Assembly (NCBI GenBank): GCA_956465555.1
Contig: OY101121.1
Span: forward strand, 1,264,722 to 1,328,721
From: Nitzschia sp. pyKryTriq1
Lineage: Eukaryota; Bacillariophyta; Bacillariophyceae; Bacillariales; Bacillariaceae
Direction of reading: 5' to 3'
DNA: 64,000 bases
Shown: positions 26,201 to 63,727 of the stretch, in pieces
How the letters are laid out: each line of letters begins with the position of its first letter
How positions within the stretch are numbered: position 1 is the first letter of the stretch
The notes under the pieces: model-generated
The model's database searches: none
What the model was told of the DNA's origin: nothing
The model's input: the letters and a program-made list of their open reading frames with translations, nothing else
Program-made: the position numbers and the translations under genes

Positions 26201-26768
26201 TAGCAAACAAAAATATGATGAAGCGATTCGCGTTTGTTCTAGAAGCGGCCTATTGAATTTTGAGGCAATCGCCAACGAGAACGTTGGGCTCTATTTTGAT
26301 GTCGAGGGTGACACAGATTGGGCTTCTTTCTACGTCACGCGCTGCTTGAAGCTTTACGAAGAGTGGGGTGCACTAGGCAAAGTTACAACGTTGCAGAACT
26401 CCCTGAAGCATCTCCTTGGTTCTTCAGCACCAAGTACGACACGGGAACAACAAGCGCGATCAGGGACAACCCACCTCGGGCGTACCAACTATCGAAAGAG
26501 TATCGCCAGCAAGATTCGGATGCTCTCATTCGAGAGTCAGAAGCACTTGTTTGGTCGAAATGGCGCTAGCAGCCGACAGCTTCAATCCACGACGACTCCT
26601 AGTTCGTTGCATTCAGGTGCGTTGCCCGCCTTTGAAGAGGGATCGGAGAAAGATGAGGCGGAGGAATCTAGCAGCCGACAGCTTCAATCCACGACTCCTC
26701 CAAGTTCTTTGCATTCTGCGTTGCCCGCCTTTGAAGAGGGATCGGAGGAAGGTGAGGCGGAGGACTAA
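23300..26768 (+). CDS. STAND-type NTPase (AAA_16) with helical-repeat C-terminus
   Basis: Two exons, 23300-25559 and 25627-26768, join as MKSG-EVEFAFVAA across GTAAGT...TTTCAG, giving 1133 residues. The N-terminus has FHGR-like YHGRHAERRRLDDL, Walker A RGYSGVGKTSL (about residue 40) and Walker B VIILFNDLHWAD (about 170). The DLHWAD form is typical of AAA_16/MalT-like STAND ATPases that couple nucleotide binding to signalling. After a winged-helix-like segment (ILKVAACLGAQVP) come TPR-like helices to about residue 1030. Related bacterial and diatom proteins often continue into kinase or cyclase domains, but here the protein ends in a disordered, acidic, Ser-rich tail made of two near-identical repeats (26568-26669 and 26670-26765). 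The ligand and output are unknown. Confidence 0.75.
26568..26765 (+). repeat. Tandem duplication in the STAND NTPase tail
   Basis: Two adjacent units of 102 and 96 bp begin with AGCAGCCGACAGCTTC. Each encodes SSRQLQST, then PSSLHS, then ALPAFEEGSE. The few differences keep the reading frame, so the protein tail grew by recent duplication. Confidence 0.9.
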
Positions 26769-29048: not shown

Positions 29049-29815
29049 ATGACCAAGTTAACTTCTGCTGTTCTCGCTACTCTTGTTGCCTCGTCAGCGG
29101 CATTCGCCCCTCAACAGGCAGCCGTCTCCAAGTCGACCGCCCTCAATGCGAAGGGATTCGAGGAAGTTGGCGGAGTTCCATTCGACCCTCTTAGCTTGGC
29201 CAAGCTTGGAACAGGTGAAAGTTTCGACACTTTTCCCAACATGTTCCCCAATGAGCAATTTTTGAAGGAGGCAGAAATCAAACACGGCCGTCAAGCTATG
29301 CTTGCCTGGACTGGTGTTTGGGCCACCCACGAGGTGAGATAATGATGAGCGTGACAATTTCATCTTGAAGGAAACAAAAACAACCATCTGACTTGTGTGC
29401 GTCCTCCTCTTTTTCGTCATTTTCTTCCTTTTTTAATACCGAATTTCCGCAGGGAGGATTGGGGCTTGGCATGCACTTCCCTGGAGCCCCAGAATGCTCT
29501 GATTGGACCAAGGCTCTGGGATGCTTCGCATCTGAGAACCCCGGAGTTTTCGGAGTCACCCTTCTTATGATTGCCATTGCTGAGGGAGAGAGTGTTGGAC
29601 ACTCGGGAGACAACTTCCGAGGAAAGTCGACCAAGACCCCTGGTGACTTGAACTTTGATTACCTTGGTATGAAGAAGAAGCTTTCTCCGGAAAAGTACGA
29701 ACGCTATCAACGTGTTGAGATGAAGAACGGTCGGGCCGCCATGATTGCTATGGCCTCGCTTTTCGCCTACGAATCTATCCCCGGATCGGTCCCTATCATG
29801 GACATCATCAGTTAA
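29049..29815 (+). CDS. Fucoxanthin chlorophyll a/c-binding (LHC-family) antenna protein
   Basis: Two exons, 29049-29333 and 29453-29815, join as ATHE-GGLGLG, giving 215 residues. The presequence ends in SSAAFAPQ, the ASAFAP-type cleavage motif that directs proteins through the ER into the diatom plastid. Membrane helix 1 carries EAEIKHGRQAML and helix 3 EMKNGRAAMI, the two chlorophyll-binding, salt-bridging ExxxxR motifs; a middle helix is VFGVTLLMIAIAE. The loop DLNFDYLGMKKKLSPEKYERYQ precedes helix 3 (written here as DLNFDYLG and KKLSPEKYERYQ). The insertion after helix 1 with two Cys (PECSDWTKALGC) is less usual. The subgroup (Lhcf, Lhcr, Lhcx or another) is undecided. It should sit in thylakoid membranes and pass excitation to the photosystems. 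Confidence 0.9.
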
Positions 29816-55812: not shown

Positions 55813-57440
55813 TTATGGAAGTCGGTTTTCTTCTGGGATTGCTTCTTCAAACGCTCCACTTTCAATGGACGCCTGGATTCCCGTCCGAAGTGCGGTTCGC
55901 ACCACGGCTGGATCGTCACCTTCTTCTAAAAATACGCAGGTCGAGGTCGTGACAACAGCACATTTCGTCACTTGAGGGGTTTCGCTTGGACAAAACGGGC
56001 TATCAATAATGGCCCGAATTTCAGGCTGAACGGAGTCAGCATAGTACACAAGCCTTCTCGATAGATGATATTGGGAGAGTGAGGATCTCTGTTGTTGTCT
56101 ATTTTGTGATTGATACCCCAAGAGTCTTCCGTCGCCTTCAAGTCTCCTGTCGGGTCCCTCAAGAACGAAGTCTGGCGGAAGTCGCGAACCAAAGAAATCA
56201 AGAGGAACAACCCAAAAATCAAGTGTGGTCGATAATGGTCGTGATCGAAGCGCTAGGCCATCATCCTCAGCAGTAGTATGGTGGGACCCTGTCGTATGTT
56301 TCCGATACCGAAGGAGTCGCCCCTCCTCTGGGAAGCTTGCATTGAGAGTCTCAATTGTTACATTGATCGTGGCAATGATTAGTCCAGTCTTCAACGTATT
56401 GTTTGTCATGTTCATGATGGCCTCCGCGTTGAACCCTGCATTGTTGACAATCCCATACTGAAATGTGATACATAGCTCATTTGCGGCAGTTGGTCCTAAC
56501 AAACGAAACAGCAACGGGTGGTGTGTGAGTTTTTTAAACGTCCAATGAATTGATGTCTGAAGTGAAAATGAAACTTACGAAACGATGGAGCAGTAGGCAT
56601 ATAGCTCGGTGCATCAGAGGGTACAATTGTGGGCGCCATCGTAGTAGGTGACAAAGTGGGCGAGGAGGAAGGAGCATCGGAAGCCGCTACCGTGGGTGCC
56701 ATCGTGGGTGATACGATTGGCGATGAAGAAGGAGAGACCGTCGGCACCCGTGTCGGTGTAGACGTAGCCGGCACAACCGTAGGCGAACCTGAAGGAGCAT
56801 CGGAAGCCACAACTATGGGCGCCATCGTAGGTGACACGATGGGCGATGAAGAGGGAGAGACCGTGGGCACCGATGTCGGTGGAGAAGTAACCGGGAAAAC
56901 CGTGGGCGTATCTGTCGGCGACACAGTCGGTGAAGACGACGGAGAGCCCGTCGGCATGGTAGTTTGAGGTGCCCTCGTTGGTGAAGGAGTGTCAGGAGCT
57001 TCAGGCAGAATGTCTGCAATGGCTTGGTCGACGATTCCACAAAACGTGAATACCATATCTGCGACCATTCCAGACGCCTCGATATCCAGGTCGACCTTGG
57101 CATTTTCGCCCACGCAGCACTGATCATCTGACGAGATCACAACACAGAAGCACGCCCCAAAATTGAAATTCGATATCAGAGAAAGAGGCAACTGTGAATA
57201 ATCTTCGTATTTCAAGTCTCCCCCACTGCGAAGAGCGATGAACGTGACATACTCGTTGGCTGTCAGCGCAAGGTCTCCGTCATCGGCCATCGACAGATCA
57301 ACTAGACAGCTTTGGAACTCGGCCTCGGACTCTTGTGACCAGATAGTTGGAGCACAAAGAAGGAATCCCATGATGAAAGCAAGCAGGATTGTATGCACAG
57401 TCGCATTTCGAGAAACCGTCTTCCCTTCTCGAACGCCCAT
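55813..57440 (-). CDS. Secreted Ser/Pro/Thr-repeat protein
   Basis: Two exons, 57440-56579 and 56495-55813, join as APSF-RPTAANEL, giving 514 residues. Residues about 15-36 are a signal peptide (ILLAFIMGFLLCAPTIWSQ). An N-terminal domain of about 110 residues has paired Cys (GACFCVV, DQCCVGENA, TFCGIV). Residues about 150-285 are a mucin-like stretch built of degenerate units such as SPSSSPIVSPTMAPTV and ASDAPSSSPT; its DNA is a minisatellite (about 56600-56980). A C-terminal domain (about 290-514) contains ELCITFQYGIVNN and late Cys in TKCAVVTTSTCVFLEE. Diatom cell-wall and adhesive proteins often have such PTS spacers, which are usually O-glycosylated. The function is unknown. Confidence 0.75.
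56600..56980. repeat. Minisatellite coding for Ser/Pro/Thr repeats
   Basis: Degenerate units recur, with two long copies sharing GATACGATTGGCGATGAAGA-type and ATCGGAAGCC-type pieces (around 56690-56740 and 56815-56860). They encode SPSSSPIVSPTMAP. The unit length is a multiple of three, so copy-number change keeps the frame. Confidence 0.7.
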
Positions 57441-60429: not shown

Positions 60430-60437
60430 TTCTCAAC

Positions 60438-60716
60438 TGAGGGATGGCGATTCGCAGCGCTCGCGCGGAATGACGCGCTTCTTCGCAGAATTTCCGCAGG
60501 GTTCAAAACTCTGCGCGTAATATCTATTCCGCGCGGAAATTTTCCGCATGACGGCGCGCAGGATGAGAAAAACATCCGCGTAATAATCCAGAAAGTGTCC
60601 GCGGAGTTCAAAAAAGTCCGCAGAGTTCCCGGTTGTCCTTAAAGTCCGCGGAGTTCTTCAAAGTCCGCGGAGTTCCTCAAAGTCCGCGGAGTTCCTCAAA
60701 GTCCGCGGAGTTCCTC
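60438..60716 (+). repeat. Left outer arm with four 19-bp tandem units
   Basis: A GC-rich arm with many CGCG and CCGCGG sites. Near its inner end are four tandem units of AAAGTCCGCGGAGTTCCTC (the first has TTC in place of CTC), 60640-60716. Confidence 0.85.
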
Positions 60717-60890
60717 AATCATAACCATCACTTTCTCAACTGACGCACGCTCTTCAAGAACAGACAACAACAGGATCGCAACATGTCGATCAAGATGATA
60801 ATTATAATTCATACTTTTCTCCCTATTGCTACCCCTATTGTAGTAGTGAGACAGTTGCCCAGAGTATAGGCTAACCCCTGTATTATCACA

Positions 60891-61615
60891 AAGATGTGAA
60901 TGGGTCTCCAGTCAAGCGAATGAAATCCGAGCCCGAAACATCAACGGGCGAGAATGGATCGGCGACCAAGCACGTAGAAGTACCTGCCGATGAACATACC
61001 GTTTTCGGATCGGTCGCGAAAATGCTTGATCCGGTCTCCCTCTCCAGATGCCCTTCCGTTTCAAGACAGTGGCGTGACATGAATGTGTTCGACGATGATT
61101 CTATTTGGTTGCAATTGGCTGTCCAGAGATTTGGATTTTTTAATGTGCGTCAGTGGACGGAGAAACTTGAAGATGGCGAAACAGAAGATACGAATGTTTC
61201 CAAGAAAGTGCTGTATCGTGCCATGAATGCAGCCAACGTGATGCCACATATGCCGCACGATGGGCTGGTGCTTCTTGGGGATGCAAAAATACCGGGAAGA
61301 ATCAGTGGGTGGGTTTTCATGGTGGAACGAAGCAACGGTGAAACACTGAGGAGTGTCAAACGAGAACCTTCAGCTATTGCTTCAGGATTTGGTGTGTATC
61401 AATCCCGACCAGTTGTGGAGCTACAAATTGTCATCCAGAATACTGGGATGGCTCATCAACCGATCGTGATCAAGAACCAAAAGATAGCTGTGGACGTATC
61501 GACACGTAGAAGTGTGGGCGAATTTCCTGAGATTAACTGGGACGAACGATTTTCAAAGGCGGTCAAGACATTAGATGGGTCCCCTTATCAAGGGAGCGCC
61601 GGGTCCCAGTCATGA
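60891..61615 (+). pseudogene. 5'-truncated copy of F-box-like gene (left arm)
   Basis: The frame has the same residues as the right copy from VNGSPVKR to the stop at 61615, but lacks exon 1 and the exon 1-2 intron. The similarity starts at 60891, the base that pairs with the first base of exon 2 in the right copy. The first in-frame ATG is at 60920 (MKSEPETST), so a shortened protein of 231 residues remains possible. No promoter counterpart of the right copy is present. It is either a truncated duplicate or the downstream part of a hairpin transcript. Confidence 0.7.
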
Positions 61616-61791
61616 TTTGATGTTCAGGGTGAACTCTGTCGTCTGGGATTATTTGAATCCGCTGTCATCAACCTTCACATCGATGCAAAAGGCTGCTCGA
61701 CCACCTCCAAATTTCGACAGAGAAGCAACTTCACCAAAGTTCTGGTTTGCGGTAGTGTGGCTTTTTGTAGAGATAAAAGTTTGAAGCTAGA
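60891..61791 (+). repeat. Left inner arm of 901-bp inverted repeat
   Basis: Pairs with 62174-63074. Spot comparison at 61501-61560 and 61681-61740 shows full identity, and the encoded proteins are identical over 239 residues. Confidence 0.9.
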
Positions 61792-61830
61792 GTGTGGCAA
61801 GGGATTGGTCTAGATCAATTTAAAGAAAAG

Positions 61831-62178
61831 ATGGGATACCGAAAGCCTAATAATAATAATAATATTAATAATAATACGGCACCACCAAACGAAGACAGCA
61901 TCAGGCATGTGGCCGACCATCAACATACACATGAAAATGTTAATAATCATGAGACCAGCAAGAAACCATCAGCTTTCAGCATGGGTCAAGCGCTCTCGGT
62001 CTTACGCCACACGAAGACATTCTATTCTGGCTTATTTTATCATATTTTTGGTGAGGGAAGGCATTCCCCTTACCTTTTGAAGAATGAGTCCTCCATCTCT
62101 TCACTGAAGATCTCAGCTTCCGACTCGGAGGAAGAAGCCCTTTTCAAGCAGCACGCCAGATCCATTTATTCAGTCTAG
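61831..62178 (+). CDS. Small ORF filling the centre of the inverted repeat, 115 residues
   Basis: From the ATG at 61831 the protein reads MGYRKP, then an Asn run coded by an AAT microsatellite (61847-61876), a His/Asn-rich stretch, and a C-terminal part with AFSMGQALSVLRHTKTFYSG (20) and ISASDSEEEALFKQHARSIY (20). Nearly the whole frame lies in the unique loop, and its stop codon falls in the first bases of the right arm. I do not recognise a family. The C-terminal half looks like a real protein, possibly the last exon of a captured gene. Confidence 0.4.
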   Translation: MGYRKPNNNNNINNNTAPPNEDSIRHVADHQHTHENVNNHETSKKPSAFSMGQALSVLRHTKTFYSGLFYHIFGEGRHSPYLLKNESSISSLKISASDSEEEALFKQHARSIYSV

Positions 62179-63074
62179 CTTCAAACTTTTATCTCTACAA
62201 AAAGCCACACTACCGCAAACCAGAACTTTGGTGAAGTTGCTTCTCTGTCGAAATTTGGAGGTGGTCGAGCAGCCTTTTGCATCGATGTGAAGGTTGATGA
62301 CAGCGGATTCAAATAATCCCAGACGACAGAGTTCACCCTGAACATCAAATCATGACTGGGACCCGGCGCTCCCTTGATAAGGGGACCCATCTAATGTCTT
62401 GACCGCCTTTGAAAATCGTTCGTCCCAGTTAATCTCAGGAAATTCGCCCACACTTCTACGTGTCGATACGTCCACAGCTATCTTTTGGTTCTTGATCACG
62501 ATCGGTTGATGAGCCATCCCAGTATTCTGGATGACAATTTGTAGCTCCACAACTGGTCGGGATTGATACACACCAAATCCTGAAGCAATAGCTGAAGGTT
62601 CTCGTTTGACACTCCTCAGTGTTTCACCGTTGCTTCGTTCCACCATGAAAACCCACCCACTGATTCTTCCCGGTATTTTTGCATCCCCAAGAAGCACCAG
62701 CCCATCGTGCGGCATATGTGGCATCACGTTGGCTGCATTCATGGCACGATACAGCACTTTCTTGGAAACATTCGTATCTTCTGTTTCGCCATCTTCAAGT
62801 TTCTCCGTCCACTGACGCACATTAAAAAATCCAAATCTCTGGACAGCCAATTGCAACCAAATAGAATCATCGTCGAACACATTCATGTCACGCCACTGTC
62901 TTGAAACGGAAGGGCATCTGGAGAGGGAGACCGGATCAAGCATTTTCGCGACCGATCCGAAAACGGTATGTTCATCGGCAGGTACTTCTACGTGCTTGGT
63001 CGCCGATCCATTCTCGCCCGTTGATGTTTCGGGCTCGGATTTCATTCGCTTGACTGGAGACCCATTCACATCTT
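62174..63074 (-). repeat. Right inner arm of 901-bp inverted repeat
   Basis: Exact reverse complement of 60891-61791 wherever compared. It carries exon 2 of the F-box-like gene and about 180 bp of 3' sequence. Confidence 0.9.
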
Positions 63075-63295
63075 CTGTAGGATGTTCCTGCCGTTTGTGA
63101 TCCGGATGTGACGCTAGTAGTTGGCTCTGGGCAGGTAGGGGGAAGCGGAACACTCCCTGGTACACCACTTGTAGTTCCAGTGGTCGCATCGAGCCGCTCT
63201 TGCAGGCAAACCATTTCCCTGGACAAAGATTCGCATTGAGAATTCAATGCTCGTAGACTCCTCGTACCAGAGCAAGTAGTCGGTACGTTCGGCAC
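62350..63295 (-). CDS. F-box-like protein (right-arm copy, two exons)
   Basis: Exons 63295-63166 and 63074-62350 with a 91-bp GTGTAC...CTACAG intron give 284 residues and join as GTTS-EDVNGSPVKR. Exon 1 codes for a coiled-coil segment (LNSQCESLSREMVCLQERLD, 20). Exon 2 holds the F-box-like region (VFGSVAKMLDPVSLSRCPSV (20), then SRQWRDMNVFDDDSIWLQL), which in other proteins binds SKP1 in SCF ubiquitin ligases, then a beta-rich domain with GRISGWVFMVERSNGE. The unspliced alternative starts at 63189 with MRPLELQVV. After the stop, another frame continues with RVNSVVWDYLNPLSS, so the ancestral protein was probably longer. Upstream exons may exist. Confidence 0.6.
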
Positions 63296-63393
63296 AAGTA
63301 CTCTAGTCTACTGTAGTAGTAATACTGGTCTTCCGCCGTTTCGCGGCGTTTCGCGGCGTTTCGCGGCGTTCCGCGTCATTTCAAAACTCCGCG

Positions 63394-63716
63394 GACTTTG
63401 AGGAACTCCGCGGACTTTGAGGAACTCCGCGGACTTTGAGGAACTCCGCGGACTTTGAGGAACTCCGCGGACTTTGAAGAACTCCGCGGACTTTGAAGAA
63501 CTCCGCGGACTTTAAGGACAACCGGGAACTCTGCGGACTTTTTTGAACTCCGCGGACACTTTCTGGATTATTACGCGGATGTTTTTCTCATCCTGCGCGC
63601 CGTCATGCGGAAAATTTCCGCGCGGAATAGATATTACGCGCAGAGTTTTGAACCCTGCGGAAATTCTGCGAAGAAGCGCGTCATTCCGCGCGAGCGCTGC
63701 GAATCGCCATCCCTCA
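63394..63716 (-). repeat. Right outer arm with seven 19-bp tandem units
   Basis: Reverse complement of the left outer arm but with seven copies of the AAAGTCCGCGGAGTTCCTC unit (six full, one altered) against four. It is preceded on its inner side by a TTTCGCGGCG tandem (63335-63375) that the left side lacks. Confidence 0.85.
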
Positions 63717-63727
63717 CTTCTTGAGAA

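Follow-up and report, generated by a model that had tools for sequence, protein, structure and literature searches.

A probable foldback-like transposon family with captured host-gene pieces in a diatom of the genus Nitzschia

Results

Positions 60438 to 63716 of a 64,000-nucleotide stretch of DNA from the diatom Nitzschia sp. pyKryTriq1 (GenBank assembly GCA_956465555.1, contig OY101121.1, positions 1,264,722 to 1,328,721; hereafter, the window) hold an element bounded by long inverted arms. We consider it quite probably a member of a young, low-copy, non-autonomous family of foldback-like DNA transposons that captures genes in the manner of Pack-type elements. Six ends at four loci share the same first base within different flanks, one interior recurs at three of these loci, and the fourth carries a 122-bp deletion derivative. 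Since its ends recur at three further sites in the genome, the window element has probably been mobile recently, and copies as nearly identical as these imply recent activity. A preliminary description of the window, made from its letters alone, had proposed a foldback-like element; we find its structure and its dispersal upheld, and its mobility is inferred rather than demonstrated, because the window insertion has yielded no empty site and no transposase with matching ends has been found.

Inverted arms and their copies in the genome

The inverted structure is real and far above chance expectation. Between 58001 and 64000, 2,363 14-mers have an inverted partner, against maxima of 9 in 100 mononucleotide shuffles and 15 in 18 overlapping 6-kb pieces of window positions 1–57000. 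The outer arms (60438–60716 and 63438–63716) were described from the outset as reverse complements, and they agree in inverted orientation at 278 of 279 positions; inverted-repeat detection delimits them as 60435–60718 and 63436–63719 (284 nt, 99%). The inner arms (60891–61805 and 62160–63074) agree at 909 of 915 positions; none of the six mismatches falls before 61792, which leaves 901 nt without a difference. Long terminal inverted repeats make up much of the window element. The outer arm folds on itself far better than its shuffles (z −6.2, none of 200 as good). The 19-bp tandem units noted at first reading are present, with 4.4 copies on the left and 7.1 on the right, and the number of unit cores per arm across the four long arms (window, C5 and C7:1.02; see below) is 6, 9, 6 and 6. 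The arms had also been called GC-rich, which is true only in moderation (54% G+C vs 48% for the window).

We searched the host assembly (40.65 Mb in 20 contigs) for copies; the search scores only the best candidates and could miss diverged ones, so the copy counts are lower bounds. The outer arm is found at the window, C5:1276987, C7:1021955 (C7:1.02) and C3:755823, with both arms in the window, one each at C5 and C7:1.02, and two ends in a palindrome at C3. The terminal 21-mer, allowing up to two mismatches, has six matches in the genome, all in these four loci (reversed control, 0), and a 30-nt pattern of the 19-bp units, allowing up to three, has 19, all in the window, C5 and C7:1.02 copies (control, 0). 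Every one of the six ends opens with TGAGGGATGGCG, starting TGAGGG at a constant first base; four of the ends have G as the base before it, and two have C. The ends are thus dispersed in the genome with fixed termini. Flanking sequence differs from locus to locus: what C5 and C7:1.02 have in common is the element only, and roughly 1.4 kb of window flank on each side has no other match in the genome search. A search with the outer arm was the test of mobility that the preliminary description had put forward, and the dispersal it looked for is what the genome contains.

The single arm at C5 and at C7:1.02 leads inward into the spacer and gene piece also seen in the window, after which the sequence ends in N (1024 and 200 bases at the two loci); a complete long element is thus visible in the window alone. 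In window numbering, the last base of the C5 copy corresponds to 62144 and that of the C7:1.02 copy to 62143; the two reach this point from opposite sides, and N follows in each. Such stops are expected if long inverted repeats broke the assembly, which suggests that these copies are folded back too; their second arms would then lie inside the gaps. Within the C7:1.02 copy 319 nt are duplicated, and about 0.36 kb has no counterpart in the window copy. The C3 copy (C3:755823–755944) is a palindrome in gap-free sequence in which 34 nt from one end meet 98 nt from the other, 10 nt being common to both, and its composition points to derivation by internal deletion or by a strand switch at the shared 10-mer.

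Capture of host-gene pieces

The interior common to the window, C5 and C7:1.02 consists of pieces of host genes, two of which have originals at 97–98% identity at C6:2334611–2338815. In that region, which has no arms, an 883-aa frame, an RPB11-like gene and an ATP-grasp-like gene stand in a row, the outer two convergent. The element carries about 1.03 kb of the gene with the 883-aa frame (below, the F-box-region piece) and 0.26 kb of the ATP-grasp-like gene; the roughly 2.9 kb between the two captured stretches is missing. Within the window element the F-box-region piece is inverted on itself. A third piece (61789–61959), joined to the ATP-grasp-like piece near a shared ACCAG, has as its closest relative in the genome a gene at C6:2645372 (81–83% alike, with an open frame of no fewer than 700 aa); no direct source of the piece was found in the genome.

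We aligned the four F-box-region copies of the three loci with the C6 source. Fifteen substitutions and a 4-bp indel separate them from the source and are common to all copies covering the position (all four copies at 11 of the 15 substitution positions). This count disregards four columns, two of them at the margin of the captured piece and the other two at the C7:1.02 breakpoint. Among the four copies themselves there is one substitution and one 16-nt gap, both in C5. Because the copies are nearly identical and share a single set of differences from the source, the piece was captured once, before spreading to three loci.

The captured gene of the preliminary description therefore stands as a capture, and not as an intact gene: what was captured is a fusion of pieces of two host genes with a third. 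The element frames break at the 4-bp indel and end early relative to the C6 source, so the supposed F-box gene is a truncated, frameshifted piece. The F-box label is itself weak, the Pfam match in the 279-aa frame being below cut-off (E 0.0029, 17.8 bits vs 24.3) and the 883-aa C6 frame having no Pfam match at E 0.01. For the second gene Pfam gives only a weak ATP-grasp match, also below cut-off (E 2.3e-6, 27.5 bits vs 31.4), and an identification as an acyltransferase was rejected. The small open reading frame (ORF) noted at 61831–62178 exists as a frame and is a chimera of the other two pieces.

The halves of the window element differ. The right half matches the C5 and C7:1.02 copies; the left half has neither the spacer nor the first part of the gene piece, and in their place has 172 bp that occur at 12 other places at 88–98% (two of them partial), with one further short match at 82%. 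All nine of the places checked extend past the left edge in nearly the same letters, so the 172 bp are a fragment of a longer dispersed repeat. A solo long terminal repeat was considered for this left spacer and rejected. The dispersed repeat, of which C5:2068846, C2:1034828 and C9:170262 are examples, includes three same-strand pairs 0.2–1.1 kb apart; it is truncated in the left half and is possibly the terminal repeat of a small retroelement.

The following course of events would account for this structure. The outer arms of about 280 bp, with their fixed terminus, hairpin-forming stretch and variable number of 19-bp units, would be the targets of a transposase that moved the element in trans. 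The 19-bp units may be transposase-binding sites, by analogy with the tandem repeats of Galileo (PMC3688188; this and the other publications cited here are represented by excerpts). The interior would be passenger DNA: pieces of two neighboring host genes and a third that were first fused and afterward folded back on themselves, with the inverted interior and the repeat fragment most likely produced by template-switching repair synthesis. The capture, fusion, inversion and spread of host-gene pieces can be seen in one small, near-identical family.

Insertion sites and the search for a transposase

Several observations weigh against a transposon. At neither of the two complete sites (window and C3) is there an abutting target-site duplication of 2 nt or more; the preliminary description had seen none in the window. 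Direct matches within 14 nt of the ends extend to no more than 4 nt (TTCT in the window, CTCG at C3), a chance level reached by 32% of random flank pairs. Two full arms occur only in the window, two of the four loci end in gaps, and four loci are a small sample. An empty site, which had been suggested as proof of mobility, did not appear for the window insertion, the one site covered, in the genome search with the window flanks. The element contains no transposase, as first read, and none with matching ends was found in the assembly, in which stretches lost to gaps are invisible. Nor is there arm-like sequence within about 3 kb around either of the genome's two matches to a Mutator-like element (MULE) transposase domain, one of which is above cut-off.

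The flanks read ...AAC on the left and CTTC... on the right of the window element, and ...CAC and CTCG... at C3, with a single C on both sides of the element at both sites. The last 14 nt of the window flanks include an inverted pair of heptamers, noticed after the fact; 7 nt or more is shared by 0.41% of 20,000 random flank pairs, and the C3 flanks show only CTCG. Perfect stems of 4–6 bp end within 5 nt of four of the six ends, and the other two have no stem of 3 bp or more. A stem of at least 4 bp has a frequency of 0.17 at a random site, which makes four of six ends an event of about 1 in 100 if the ends are independent; the thresholds, however, were set with the data in view, and one site accounts for two of the four stem-bearing ends. 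A palindromic insertion target is suggestive at best. We see a slim chance that the element represents an inverted-end mobile DNA of diatoms whose insertion, perhaps next to or inside small palindromes, makes no target-site duplication and proceeds either by a transposase chemistry of a new kind or as hairpin-ended linear DNA, with arms built from host-gene pieces. The missing duplication is the feature that could change the classification of the element.

Candidates for an autonomous partner were sought in several ways. The exact 11-mer terminus has 15 matches in the genome, of which four are the family; the remaining 11, against 13 in the reversed control, extend over at most 12 of 24 further positions and were rejected as ends of a partner. 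The two MULE-domain loci (L077 and L078) were likewise rejected for having no arm-like sequence, and an inverted pair at L078 is unrelated: it lies at L078:254–448, about 1 kb from the weaker domain match, with 58-nt arms 95% identical and 79 nt apart, a palindrome of another family resembling a miniature inverted-repeat transposable element (MITE). At L077:2177–3174, downstream of the stronger match, are several stretches of GAATTC-type hexamers. A search for Pfam PF21787, which we take to be the P-type transposase domain, gave no match in the genome and likewise none in 14 control genomes. About 0.8 kb outside the element end at C7:1.02 lies a 354-aa frame (L011:2564–3628) with an HTH_Tnp_1 match (E 1.9e-6) and a weak Tc5-type match below cut-off, possibly a domesticated DNA-binding protein.

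Alternative explanations

The missing duplications would be natural if the copies were linear DNA with hairpin ends (a linear plasmid, excised linear DNA or a defective virus-like genome) that end joining, and not a transposase, had inserted into chromosomes. In that case the self-complementary ends would represent terminal hairpins, in keeping with the strong folding of the outer arm, and the C3 copy would be just such a palindromic end. We regard this as improbable. End joining is not expected to leave the same first base at six ends; the 279-aa and 115-aa element frames, the two scanned, have no Pfam match to a replication protein; and a viral origin was rejected on an exact-match scan in which the terminal 21-mer had no match among viral contigs.

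Less probable again is a local palindrome that never moved, formed by fold-back repair at short inverted repeats such as TTCTCAA/TTGAGAA, with its arms spread by segmental duplication. The flanking heptamers are indeed inverted and not direct, an observation made post hoc, and the two F-box-region copies of the window do not differ at all over 901 nt. Segmental duplication, however, would have brought flank along with it, and the window flanks have no second copy, whereas the same ends start at the same base at three other loci with different flanks. These other loci and the single-copy flanks already refute the local palindrome for the most part.

Long near-perfect palindromes can arise from chimeric reads, and two related loci finish in N runs, but an assembly artefact (inverted chimeric reads or collapsed haplotypes) is very improbable given that the halves differ (172-bp repeat fragment and 4.4 units on the left, spacer and 7.1 units on the right), that the flanks differ, and that the separate C3 copy has both its ends in gap-free sequence.

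Features of the element and its surroundings

Table 1. Coordinates of the window element and its immediate flanks.
Position	Strand	Feature	Evidence
60430..60436	+	Flanking heptamer TTCTCAA, inverted partner of 63721–63727, not a direct target-site duplication	
60438..60718	+	Left outer arm: terminus TGAGGGATGGCG..., then internal hairpin, then 19-bp units	Inverted repeat, copy search, fold z −6.2
60636..60718	+	Left 19-bp tandem array, 4.4 copies	Tandem-repeat detection
60719..60890	.	Dispersed-repeat fragment	Genome matches; edges checked at 9 of 13 other places
60888..61746	+	Left copy of captured F-box-like gene piece, 231-aa open frame at 60920–61615	Sequence comparison, ORFs
61746..61794	-	49 nt of captured ATP-grasp-like gene piece, end of left half	Match to C6 source
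61789..61959	+	Third captured piece, part of loop, 81–83% like the C6:2645372 gene	Genome match
61831..62178	+	115-aa ORF, chimera of third and ATP-grasp-like pieces; no Pfam match at E 0.01	ORF, Pfam
61960..62219	+	Captured ATP-grasp-like gene piece, 97–98% to C6:2334623–2334883	Genome match
62219..63251	-	Right copy of captured F-box-like gene piece, 98% to C6:2337787–2338815	Genome match, Pfam
62350..63189		279-aa frame in right F-box-like copy; starts near the 4-bp indel, ends early vs source	
63252..63384	-	Right spacer with 10-bp CGTTTCGCGG repeats at 63337–63375; also at C5 and C7:1.02	
63385..63518	-	Right 19-bp tandem array, 7.1 copies	Tandem-repeat detection
63385..63716	-	Right outer arm, terminus ...CCATCCCTCA	Inverted repeat, copy search
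63721..63727	+	Flanking heptamer TTGAGAA, inverted partner of 60430–60436	

Apart from the element, the window contains two two-copy tandem repeats (26566–26764, 99-bp unit; 56668–56908, 123-bp unit) whose units are multiples of three and perhaps lie within coding sequence. An exon at 29471–29773 has its best match to photosystem I fucoxanthin chlorophyll protein chains (E 5e-45), presumably those of diatoms. The genome has 72 light-harvesting matches, counting exons apart. The diatom host that the preliminary description assumed is adequately supported by these matches. Two pairs of equal score, C1:4283352/4323268 (about 40 kb apart) and C3:3144038/3186600 (43 kb apart), perhaps reflect a large segmental duplication or an unmerged haplotype. 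A third pair, C3:1940953 and C3:1942761, 1.8 kb apart in opposite orientation with the same score and the same kinds of internal stops, is perhaps another recent inverted duplication.

Comparison with known elements

Foldback-like elements also occur in plants. In animals they are documented from nematodes and Drosophila (PMC3169594, PMC4079207, PMC3688188), and the literature searched (titles, starts of abstracts and some passages, with most subscription journals outside it) yielded none in a diatom. Tm1, a Mutator/Foldback family of root-knot nematodes, resembles the present family in being low-copy and in having composite inverted ends in which the number of short tandem motifs varies (PMC3169594), a likeness of described structure. 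Its motifs, most often of 14 bp, occur as 1–9 units whose number differs between the ends of one element, and the family includes MITE-like members and one member that encloses a gene (PMC3169594). Unlike the elements described here, Tm1 makes 9-bp target-site duplications and has members with a putative Mutator (Phantom) transposase (PMC3169594).

Tetris, a foldback of Drosophila virilis, is likewise non-autonomous, has tandem repeats inside its inverted ends, shares portions of those ends with a small element and has no autonomous partner found in its genome (PMC4079207). It differs in its target-site duplications of 8–10 bp and its internal repeats of about 220 bp, and the excerpted parts of its description do not mention the capture of host genes that we see here (PMC4079207). 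Galileo, of the P superfamily in Drosophila, likewise has long foldback-like ends; these contain tandem repeats in which additional binding sites for the transposase have been identified (PMC3688188). It has P-type transposase sequences (PMC3688188), of which the PF21787 search gave no sign here or in the control genomes. The diatom family may work like Tm1, Tetris or Galileo; membership of a superfamily is unproven.

Pack-TYPE and Pack-MULE elements, as excerpted, are also non-autonomous, have inverted ends and capture host coding DNA (PMC8903248, PMC8277862); here, in contrast, the inversion takes in the captured piece, which makes up part of the arms. Mutator-like elements are known in diatoms (PMC6446971, PMC2806351). 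The excerpted table of PMC6446971 lists autonomous, transposase-bearing diatom MULEs, unlike the non-autonomous element described here; its group 37, 'MULE-Diatoms', has ends of 123–124 bp and the entry 'No TSD and not indicated', where TSD stands for target-site duplication, so missing duplications do not exclude a relation to MULEs. The window element departs from its closest counterparts in lacking a detectable target-site duplication and is structurally of a known kind, nearest to Tm1, Tetris, Galileo and the Pack-type elements; if our reading of it is true, foldback-like architecture extends to a diatom.

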